Source of the DNA: Bradyrhizobium macuxiense
GTDB lineage: Bacteria; Pseudomonadota; Alphaproteobacteria; Rhizobiales; Xanthobacteraceae
Assembly (NCBI RefSeq): GCF_001542415.1
Contig: NZ_LNCU01000088.1
Coordinates: 123,855 to 187,854 of the forward strand
Direction: 5' to 3'
DNA: 64,000 nucleotides
Shown here piece after piece: positions 28,959 to 56,303 of the stretch. The translations under genes and the position numbers were made by a program. Each line of letters begins with the position of its first letter. The first letter of the stretch is position 1. The notes below the pieces were generated by a model. It made no database searches, was not told the DNA's origin, and saw only the letters and a list, made by a program, of their open reading frames with translations.

Positions 28959-29960
28959 TCACAGCTGGAACAAGCCGAGCCCTTCCATGACGTAGCATTT
29001 GGTGCGTTCCGTGGTGTCCCGTGCCTTCAGGGTTCCGCGTCTGATGATATCGACAACGAGGTCGCGATCGGTGGCCAGCTCGGTGCGCCGTGCCCGGATC
29101 GGCGCGATCAACTCCTGGAGAATGTTCTCCAGGCGCCGCTTGACGCTTGAATCGCCGAGACCGCCGCGCCGATAGCGCGCCTTCAAATCCTCGACCGCAT
29201 TGCGATCGTCGTCAAACGCGTCGAGATAGGTGAAGACGACATTGCCTTCGACCTTGCCGGGGTCGCTGACACGCAGATGGTCGGGATCGGTGAACATCGC
29301 GCGCACGGCAGCGGAAATGTCATCGGGCGAGGCCGAGAGCGGAATGGCGTTGCCGGCGGACTTGCTCATCTTCGAGCGTCCATCGACGCCCGGCAGCCGC
29401 CCCGCACGCGGGATGATCGCCTGCGCCTCCTGCAACAGCTCGCGTCCGGCCAGCGCATTGACGCGGCGAACGATCTCGTTGGTCTGCTCGATCAGGGGAG
29501 CCTGGTCCTCGCCGACCGGCACGACCGTTGCGCGGAAGGCGGTGATATCAGCAGCCTGCGATGCGGGATGGCAAAGGAAGCCGGCCGGGATGTCGCGTCC
29601 GAAACCGCGCGCGCGGATTTCATCCTTGATGGTGGGGTTGCGCTCGAGCCGAGCGACCGTGACGAGGTTGAGATAGAGCATCGACAGCTCCGCAAGCGCG
29701 GGAAGCTGCGATTGCAGGCAGATCGACGTTCGTTCCGGATCGATGCCGACGGCAAGATAGTCCAGTGCGACCTCGATGACATTGTCGCGGACCTTGCCGA
29801 CGTCGTGGGCATTGTCGGTGAGGGCCTGCATATCCGCGAGCAGCAGGAACTGCCGGTGCGTGTCCTGAAACGCGAGACGGCTTTTCAGCGAGCCGACATA
29901 GTGGCCCAGATGAAGCGGCCCGGTGGTGCGGTCACCGGTGAGAATGATCGGTTTGGTCAT
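28959..29960 (-). CDS. trpS: Tryptophanyl-tRNA synthetase
   Basis: A 333-residue class I aminoacyl-tRNA synthetase that charges tRNA-Trp. The HIGH motif appears as HLGH (residues 17-20) and the KMSKS loop as KMSKS (197-201). The dimer/Trp-binding segments ARLERNPTIKDEI and GFLCHPASQAADITAF lie between. The N-terminus MTKPIILTGDRTTGPLHLGH resembles the TrpRS group common in Firmicutes more than the usual proteobacterial form as I remember it, so this may be a second, acquired enzyme. ATG 29960 has GGAG nine bases upstream; a longer in-frame reading runs through the leader and is spurious. Expression is probably controlled by the attenuator upstream. Confidence 0.96.
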   Translation of the reverse strand: MTKPIILTGDRTTGPLHLGHYVGSLKSRLAFQDTHRQFLLLADMQALTDNAHDVGKVRDNVIEVALDYLAVGIDPERTSICLQSQLPALAELSMLYLNLVTVARLERNPTIKDEIRARGFGRDIPAGFLCHPASQAADITAFRATVVPVGEDQAPLIEQTNEIVRRVNALAGRELLQEAQAIIPRAGRLPGVDGRSKMSKSAGNAIPLSASPDDISAAVRAMFTDPDHLRVSDPGKVEGNVVFTYLDAFDDDRNAVEDLKARYRRGGLGDSSVKRRLENILQELIAPIRARRTELATDRDLVVDIIRRGTLKARDTTERTKCYVMEGLGLFQL

Positions 29961-30013
29961 CGTATCTCCATTCGGTTGGAATGGGGACGCCGCATTGCGA
30001 GCTGGATGACATG

Positions 30014-30037
30014 AAAAGGCCGCCCGATGCGGCGGCC
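30014..30037 (-). terminator. Attenuator terminator hairpin before trpS
   Basis: On the minus strand GGCCGCC (30031-30037) pairs with GGCGGCC (30018-30024) around a six-base loop. UUUU (30014-30017) follows directly. It lies between the leader-peptide ORF and trpS, 54 bases before the trpS ATG. An alternative pairing of GGCCGCC with GGCGGGCC just after the leader stop would prevent it. Confidence 0.8.
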
Positions 30038-30070
30038 CCGAAAATGCATGAACGCGTTCGGCCCGCCTTG

Positions 30071-30118
30071 TCAGAAGGCGCGCCACCAGAAATTGGCGAT
30101 GAGGATCGAATGCTTCAT
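30071..30118 (-). CDS. Trp-rich leader peptide of trpS (TrpL-like)
   Basis: A 15-codon ORF from ATG 30118 to TGA 30071 reads MKHSILIANFWWRAF, with tandem tryptophan codons at positions 11-12. The stop lies inside a hairpin CGCCTT/AAGGCG (30075-30080 with 30064-30069), and segment 2 can instead pair with the terminator's 5' arm. This is the standard layout of ribosome-mediated trp attenuation: low Trp-tRNA stalls the ribosome on UGG-UGG and favours the antiterminator. No Shine-Dalgarno is seen; the promoter position suggests that the message may start at the AUG (leaderless), as I recall for the rhizobial trpE leader. Confidence 0.75.
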   Translation of the reverse strand: MKHSILIANFWWRAF

Positions 30119-30125
30119 GCCGCAA

Positions 30126-30154
30126 CGCGTAGGGCAAACCGGCGGTATGGTCAA
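30126..30154 (-). promoter_or_regulatory. Candidate promoter of the trpS leader transcript
   Basis: Minus-strand TTGACC (30149-30154) and TACGCG (30126-30131) are separated by 17 bases. The ATG of the leader peptide begins seven bases after the -10, at the expected transcription start. The -35 is good, the -10 weak. Confidence 0.5.
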
Positions 30155-30202: not shown

Positions 30203-30305
30203 CCCTCATGGTGAGGAGCGCGGAACGCGCGTCTCGAACCATGAGGCCCCATCTGTGGCCTACATCCTTCGAGACGCCCGCTTCGCGGTCTCCTCAGGAT
30301 GAGGG
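30203..30305. repeat. Dispersed inverted repeat (CCCTCATGGTGAGGAGC type), copy 1
   Basis: A 103-bp element bounded by CCCTCATGGTGAGGAGC and CTCCTCAGGATGAGGG, with internal GTCTCGAACCATGAGGCC and CATCCTTCGAGACGC arms. A second copy in opposite orientation is at 56203-56303. It is a common non-coding repeat family in Bradyrhizobiaceae. Here it fills the gap between the trpS leader promoter and the SDR gene. Confidence 0.8.
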
Positions 30306-56202: not shown

Positions 56203-56303
56203 CTCCTCATCCTGAGGAGCTTGCGCAGCAAGCGTCTCGAAGGATGAGGCCACCGGCCGGGCCTCATGGTTCGAGACGCGCTTCGCGCTCCTCACCATGA
56301 GGG
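56203..56303. repeat. Dispersed inverted repeat, copy 2 (opposite to 30203-30305)
   Basis: A 101-bp relative of the element at 30203-30305, in reverse orientation. Boundaries are CTCCTCATCCTGAGGAGC and CTCACCATGAGGG, and the core GTCTCGAAGGATGAGGCC and GGCCTCATGGTTCGAGACGC is shared. It splits the peptide-type importer operon between the binding-protein gene and the first permease. Confidence 0.8.

Follow-up and report, generated by a model that had tools for sequence, protein, structure and literature searches.

The leader of trpS

The window (the whole stretch of 64,000 nucleotides of Bradyrhizobium macuxiense DNA analysed here) carries on its minus strand a trpS gene preceded by a short leader (Table 1). 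A first-pass annotation had proposed, in this order, a promoter, a 15-codon ORF with two adjacent Trp codons, a hairpin at the leader stop, an antiterminator strand, and a terminator. Sequence and fold locate all of these parts where it had placed them. The list was not complete, however: it overlooked region 5, a part that could tie the switch to initiation at trpS.

Table 1 Features of the trpS leader in the window.
Feature	Position	Strand	Basis and remarks
-35 box TTGACC	30154-30149	minus	sequence; 17-nt spacer to the -10-like box
-10-like box TACGCG	30131-30126	minus	sequence; predicted transcription start at or adjoining the leader ATG
Leader peptide ORF, 15 codons, MKHSILIANFWWRAF then stop, probably leaderless	30118-30071	minus	ORF and related leaders
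Tandem Trp codons UGGUGG, putative sensor	30088-30083	minus	sequence
Region 1, pairs with region 2; predicted to lie under a ribosome stalled at the Trp codons	30075-30085	minus	fold, sequence, swap test
Pause hairpin CGCCUU-CUGAC-AAGGCG across the leader stop codon	30080-30064	minus	sequence, fold
Region 2, AAGGCGGGCCG, antiterminator strand with region 3 as its partner	30059-30069	minus	sequence; swap support weak
Region 3, GGGGCCGCCGCAUC, terminator 5' arm and loop; possible partner of regions 2, 4, and 5	30026-30039	minus	sequence, pairing tests
Intrinsic terminator 3:4, GGCCGCC-loop-GGCGGCC-UUUU, GGCCGCCGCAUCGGGCGGCCUUUU	30037-30014	minus	terminator scan, fold, alignment
Region 5, AAUGCGGCGUCCCC, which can also pair with region 3; part of the strand hiding the Shine-Dalgarno sequence	29983-29996	minus	pairing tests
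5:6 hairpin hiding the trpS Shine-Dalgarno sequence GGAG (29966-29969)	29966-29986	minus	leader fold; class-B counterpart 92% paired
trpS, auxiliary tryptophanyl-tRNA synthetase, TrpRS II type, 333 aa, ATG 29960-29958	28959-29960	minus	profile and structure comparison

The leader ATG lies 7 nt past TACGCG. The leader ORF with UGGUGG of a trp-type attenuator is in place and conserved, its translation being predicted. The mutually exclusive helices 1:2, 2:3, and 3:4 are found by sequence and fold, 2:3 by complementarity alone (GGCGGGCC at 30067-30060 is complementary to GGCCGCC at 30037-30031 with one bulged G), and an intrinsic terminator precedes the gene. The RNA 30121-30010 folds 3.28 sd below its shuffles, only 1 of 200 of which is as low, and both the pause hairpin and the terminator are present in its predicted fold. 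Mechanical scanning of the window returns no promoter at threshold; it does return the terminator, at a rate (1 versus 0.7 expected from shuffles) that is not significant alone. Short ORFs with TGGTGG number four in the 64 kb, both strands together, and the chance that one of them falls on the right strand and in the right place before trpS is estimated at about 1% or less. The sole match of Rfam models at the gathering score in the whole window is a tRNA at 1845-1916, with no T-box or other Rfam leader among the matches. Upstream of the leader promoter lies a palindromic repeat (30216-30301), a partial second copy of which, with one mismatch to the pattern, occurs at 56208-56246.

The window enzyme is an auxiliary TrpRS of type II

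The gene had been named trpS, and the name stands, but this is an auxiliary copy and the genome has a separate housekeeping trpS. In a profile search for the family, the contig 41 copy scores 299 bits and that of the window 212 bits, and the two enzymes are 30% identical. A Trp-Trp ORF is absent from the 330 nt upstream of the housekeeping gene. The best solved structures for the window enzyme are those of Deinococcus TrpRS II (2a4m and 1yi8, 372 bits), the next one scoring 214 bits. By these comparisons, the window trpS is identified as an auxiliary copy of the TrpRS II type. TrpRS II of Deinococcus radiodurans, the closest in solved structure, is likewise a second TrpRS, and it works with NO synthase according to the available text of PMC9437257. 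NO synthase (PF02898) has no match in this genome and has matches in 2 of 14 control genomes; a Deinococcus-like link of the auxiliary TrpRS to NO synthase was thus sought and not found.

A close TrpRS-II copy is present in 29 of 117 genomes of the genus and in 13 of 297 genomes of the order, four of the 13 belonging to the genus. At the level of the class, a copy is present in 34 of 385 genomes; 23 loci retrieved among these come from small genomes and are just 46-57% identical. Judged by this distribution, the TrpRS-II gene is optional. Extra, split, or interrupted copies occur in five genomes of the genus (G028, G039, G057, G077, and G110), as expected for an optional gene that comes and goes.

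Conservation of the leader and its start

A Trp-Trp leader ORF lies upstream of TrpRS-II in all 29 Bradyrhizobium loci (L003-L028, L029, L030, and L031), a count that leaves aside the further close copies G028:C142, G057:C195, and G057:C228. Among alphaproteobacteria outside the genus with at least 68% identity, 13 of 15 loci have the Trp-Trp leader, and L034 and L046 have a single Trp. Among the best 80 of 577 confirmed loci, the named ones, 45 have it, four (L125-L127 and L131) have one Trp in the same setting, L105 has Trp-Cys, L092 has kept the hairpins and lost the Trp codons, and 29 are without such an ORF, fourteen of these being Acinetobacter. The carriers among these 80 are mostly alpha- and betaproteobacteria, with two gammaproteobacteria (L145 and L148) and a few metagenome-assembled genomes (MAGs; e.g., L124 and L150). 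No Trp-Trp ORF is among the ORFs listed, at most six per locus, for the 23 small-genome alphaproteobacterial loci. The finding in 29 of 29 Bradyrhizobium loci and in 45 of these 80 indicates that the leader is not a product of chance.

The fractions above were obtained without requiring TGGTGG. This motif was required for a set of 83 leaders, so the Trp codons are invariant in that set by construction; duplicates, pieces, and one stray ORF (L002, L029, L030, L042, L093, L111, and L129), as well as loci below 55% identity, were left out beforehand.

Of the 27 cluster representatives with a single candidate ATG, 18 have TTG of the -35 box at offset -36 or -35 relative to this ATG, and no other offset between -44 and -21 has TTG more than twice; TA peaks at -13 and -12. 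This spacing makes it probable that the leader mRNA is leaderless and starts with the A of the leader ATG. The conserved -35 position also argues against a transcription start below the leader ORF. Conservation strongly supports the core of the first-pass reading, namely that trpS is preceded by a leaderless Trp-Trp leader acting as a ribosome-mediated attenuator, and on this comparative footing we take the leader to be a real, conserved attenuator of the auxiliary trpS.

Leader classes and the helices 1:2, 2:3, 3:4, and 5:6

The leaders were assigned by hand to classes A and B, as were the leader labels on the enzyme tree. Class-B leaders, found in many alphaproteobacteria, have 1:2, region 3, and region 5 and mostly no U-tract; L041 is an exception, in between. 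Because the U-tract is absent while regions 3 and 5 are kept, the class-B leaders look like translational attenuators.

Helix 1:2 is 99% paired in class B, and a leader's own 1:2 is better than half of its swapped partners in 32 of 38 clusters. For 2:3, the own partner exceeds half of the swaps in 25 of 38 clusters, which is weak; its core hardly varies and has no double changes, and its outer part pairs in 51% of class-B cells. Helix 3:4 is 100% paired in class A, where it is invariant or changed on one side and has no double changes; in class B, 61% of the cells of its lower stem are paired. Helix 5:6 is 92% paired in class B, where two of four pairs have changed on both sides. A lack of conservation of the Trp codons or the hairpins in relatives, which the first-pass annotation had named as refuting, was not observed.

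As a separate observation, the Oxalobacteraceae leaders L116, L121, L125, L126, and L131 share the stretch GTGATGTGA in the segment separating region 2 from region 3. Stalled L081 has as its minimum-energy fold a three-way junction in which the anti-Shine-Dalgarno strand, too, is captured by region 2. We do not claim this junction as conserved, because L041, L047, and L048 have another anti-Shine-Dalgarno strand and the same GGAGC in region 2.

Region 5, a predicted additional partner of region 3

The terminator 5' arm and loop of the window, GGGGCCGCCGCAU, can pair with region 2, with the terminator 3' arm, and also with AUGCGGCGUCCCC (29983-29996), the last through 12 pairs with one mismatch (-25.1 kcal/mol). 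Most of the 38 leader clusters have such a region-5 partner with differing letters, for example GCCGCCGUGAUC with GAUUGCGGCGGC in Rhizobium, GCCAGCCAUG with CAUGGCUGGC in Burkholderia, GCCUCGAUUC with GGAUCGAGGC in Massilia, and GAGGGUCGCUCCAUGC with GCACGGAGCGAUCCUC in a Gemmatimonadaceae MAG. Region 5 ends mostly 16-28 nt upstream of the trpS ATG, with exceptions such as L074, L117, L118, L123, and L124.

Covariation of 3:5 was scored on sequence alignments unfitted to any structure, with 17 alphaproteobacterial rows in class A and 22 in class B. In class A, 92.5% of the cells are paired, compared with 41-63% for slid partners, and three pairs differ on both sides, a count reached by 3 of 500 shuffles; further pair types show no excess over shuffles in these 17 rows (301 of 500). 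In class B, 94.1% of the cells are paired (0 of 500 shuffles), compared with 31-66% for slid partners, and the changes on both sides amount to five pairs (1 of 500 shuffles) and 15 cells (0 of 500). A class-B partner slid by -1 has 16 double-changed cells, yet only 36% of its cells are paired. By this scoring, 3:5 covaries in two alignments.

When region 3 was taken from the 3:4 hairpin alone, the own 3:5 was better than half of the swaps in 32 of 38 clusters; the controls, region 3 with trpS coding sequence and 2:5, gave 19 and 18 of 38, respectively. In an energy test in which the region-3 windows were picked on the own partner, the own 3:5 reaches p 0.05 against shuffled downstream sequence in 35 of 38 clusters and beats all 37 swaps in 12. 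The own median over the 38 clusters is -24.35 kcal/mol, compared with -14.5 for shuffles and -17.1 for swaps. L115, L117, and L149 fail the shuffle test, and L118 is weak. The window's own 3:5 has p 0.017 against shuffles and is not significant against swaps (rank 0.32). A first version of the 3:5 test (29 of 83 at p 0.05) was discarded as confounded, the strongest hairpin often being 3:5 itself.

In another reading, the leader mainly feeds ribosomes to trpS by reinitiation, or makes a peptide or a terminated sRNA that acts in trans like rhizobial peTrpL and rnTrpL. The leader has been kept over long times, and S. meliloti peTrpL does act in trans, with a resistance role that the available text of PMC7298713 reports as conserved in other alphaproteobacteria. 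However, the leader stop is mostly about 100-130 nt before trpS (78-224 overall, L129 aside), which is far for reinitiation, and the peptide outside the two Trp residues drifts between clades while the RNA pairing is kept. We regard this reading as very unlikely.

Predicted opening of the trpS start

The start of trpS is hidden by pairs in or adjoining region 5. These are CCAUUC with GAAUGG in the fold of the window, CUCC with GGAG in class B, and, by eye, AUCGAG with CUCGAU at the start codon in Massilia. When 3:5 is imposed instead of 3:4 in 34 clusters (L115, L117, L118, and L149 left out), the stretch from the Shine-Dalgarno sequence to AUG is more open in 26 and less open in 4; in 29, more is gained than on average after shuffling of the start region. 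The gain of the window itself (0.17 versus 0.06, p 0.24) is not significant alone. The parts, their conservation, the covariation of 3:5, and the opening by imposed 3:5 over imposed 3:4 across clusters are computed results.

Unforced equilibrium folds show no opening of the site on stalling, with 1 up and 3 down of 19 in class A and 1 up and 5 down of 19 in the beta and other leaders; in class B, 16 are up and 4 down of 40. An earlier version of the stalled and free folding leaves the site shut in most leaders. Equilibrium folding of stalled versus free leaders was tried as a guide to the direction of the translational arm and did not resolve it.

We weighed whether termination is the whole story, with 1:2, 2:3, and 3:4 setting it and 3:5 having no role, as a leftover or a side effect of GC-rich repeats. 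The window has all the classical parts, its own 3:5 is not better than swaps, and the unforced folds of class A show no opening, all in line with a purely classical attenuator. Against it stand the covariation of 3:5 in two alignments, the 35 of 38 clusters at p 0.05 against shuffles, the position of region 5 close to the ATG, and the many alphaproteobacteria with 3:5 but without a U-tract. We consider it rather unlikely.

Instead, we think it fairly probable that the auxiliary trpS is under a two-step, leaderless control by Trp codons, in which termination comes first and translation second; our confidence is slightly lowered by the window itself, whose 3:5 and opening gain are not significant against swaps and shuffled starts, respectively. 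When Trp-tRNA is plentiful, the ribosome would reach the leader stop, 1:2 and then 3:4 would form, and most transcripts would terminate; in the RNA that is read through, the free region 5 would keep the trpS ribosome-binding site shut through 5:6. When starvation or poisoning of the housekeeping TrpRS makes Trp-tRNA scarce, the ribosome would stall at UGGUGG. Region 2 would then take region 3 and block 3:4, and RNA polymerase would read on. Region 5, emerging later, would invade from the part of region 3 left free by 2:3, so that 3:5 forms and the trpS start opens. The terminator decision would in this way be carried over to translation. Since the unforced folds lack an opening on stalling, the step from stalling to 3:5 is an inference. 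The stalling itself, the hand-over of region 3 from region 2 to region 5, and induction in cells are likewise inferred.

The opposite direction has also to be weighed. Helices 2:3 and 3:5 overlap in the 5' half of region 3 and therefore compete, and region 5 stays unpaired with region 3 as long as region 2 occupies it. The 2:3 helix formed on stalling would then free region 5 to close the site, and starvation would relieve termination and lower translation, with opposed outputs. On the same footing, however, 3:5 is the stronger helix (median -20.9 versus -17.2 kcal/mol for 2:3), and part of it lies outside 2:3 and offers a place to start. In addition, an enzyme that restores Trp-tRNA should presumably not be shut off by a lack of Trp-tRNA. 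Opposed outputs are accordingly the reading we hold to be the most improbable.

Leader, gene, and second trpS

In the enzyme tree, the class-A alphaproteobacteria group in a single fork, where 19 of 20 rows have a terminator, among class-B lineages, and three Burkholderiales with class-B leaders (L089, L095, and L105) nest, enzymes included, among the alphaproteobacteria. This is a quick tree with many weak forks, made without L002, L028, L029, L030, L031, L042, L148, and rows shorter than 300 aa. Since the class-B leaders and the enzymes of these Burkholderiales both sit among alphaproteobacteria, gene and leader probably moved together.

The number of trpS copies was scored in 42 of the 80 named genomes (best 80 of 577), with split matches merged and matches below the cut-off left out. 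Two trpS are present in 22 of 23 genomes with a Trp-Trp leader and in 6 of 15 without a leader (Fisher p 0.00025, kinship ignored). The sole leader genome among the 23 that lacks a second trpS is L120, a MAG. The genomes of L105, L125, L126, and L092 all have two trpS. C. basilensis (L089) has the leader and two trpS, and its Cupriavidus relatives L082, L083, and L091 lack the leader and carry a single trpS. Presence of the leader is associated with a second trpS.

A broader proposal is a family of five-region TrpRS-II attenuators. Once read-through has occurred, the terminator strand would serve a second time, to unlock the ribosome-binding site, so that one stall would set both outputs. In many alphaproteobacteria its members would be purely translational, driven by the leaderless Trp-codon ORF, and the leader would travel with the gene and be lost when the enzyme becomes the sole TrpRS. 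We see this proposal as evenly balanced between true and false. Control of the kind described here would show by what means bacteria hold back a spare tRNA synthetase as long as charging works, a question that bears on starvation and on antibiotics directed at TrpRS. It would also be a testable case in which one RNA strand passes on to translation initiation what has been decided at transcription termination. Relatives that have or lack the U-tract, and lineages with neither leader nor second trpS, offer a natural series for studying how the output of an attenuator changes.

Comparison with known systems

An auxiliary, antibiotic-resistant TrpRS gene under ribosome-mediated transcriptional attenuation was reportedly described by Vecchione and Sello in 2010, and a comparative paper of the same year by Lopatovskaya is said to treat attenuation of aminoacyl-tRNA operons and may include trpS. 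In the first-pass annotation, attenuation of trpS had been held not to be a standard described case. This does not hold: according to the available texts, an attenuator has been predicted before trpS2 of S. avermitilis (PMC1262725), and a leaderless leader with one Trp has been found by RNA-seq in trpL2-trpS of S. lividans (PMC8079986). As here, the Streptomyces attenuators place a Trp-codon leader before trpS, leaderless in S. lividans. They are actinobacterial, however; trpL2 of S. lividans has one Trp and no U-rich run, and region 5 goes unmentioned in the available texts of these sources.

The trpE leaders of rhizobia and Bradyrhizobium (trpL, rnTrpL, and peTrpL) likewise have a leaderless ORF, consecutive Trp codons, and a terminator. 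The S. meliloti one is leaderless and gives rise to products acting in trans, according to the available text of PMC7298713. In the genome studied here, trpE (contig 49, L152) has a leader, MSTVASPSRRWWPTFS, whose ATG follows a TTGACA at a distance of about 36 nt, resembling the published Bja-peTrpL MSTAVAPARLWWRTS as given in the available part of PMC7298713. The trpE leaders control biosynthesis, whereas the trpS leader would control charging. In addition, the region-5-like complement to the terminator arm near the start is weaker in trpE leaders, reaching p 0.05 in 19 of 26 leaders of the genus and in 0 of 4 outside it (20 shuffles each).

For Caulobacter crescentus, ribosome profiling has suggested a small leader CDS on the trpS mRNA (available text of PMC4117421), which may or may not belong to the TrpRS-II leader family. 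No earlier description of a proteobacterial TrpRS-II leader or of region 5 was found in the open-licence literature. Attenuation of an auxiliary trpS is already known in Streptomyces; what is new here is region 5, its predicted link to translation, and the form without a U-tract.
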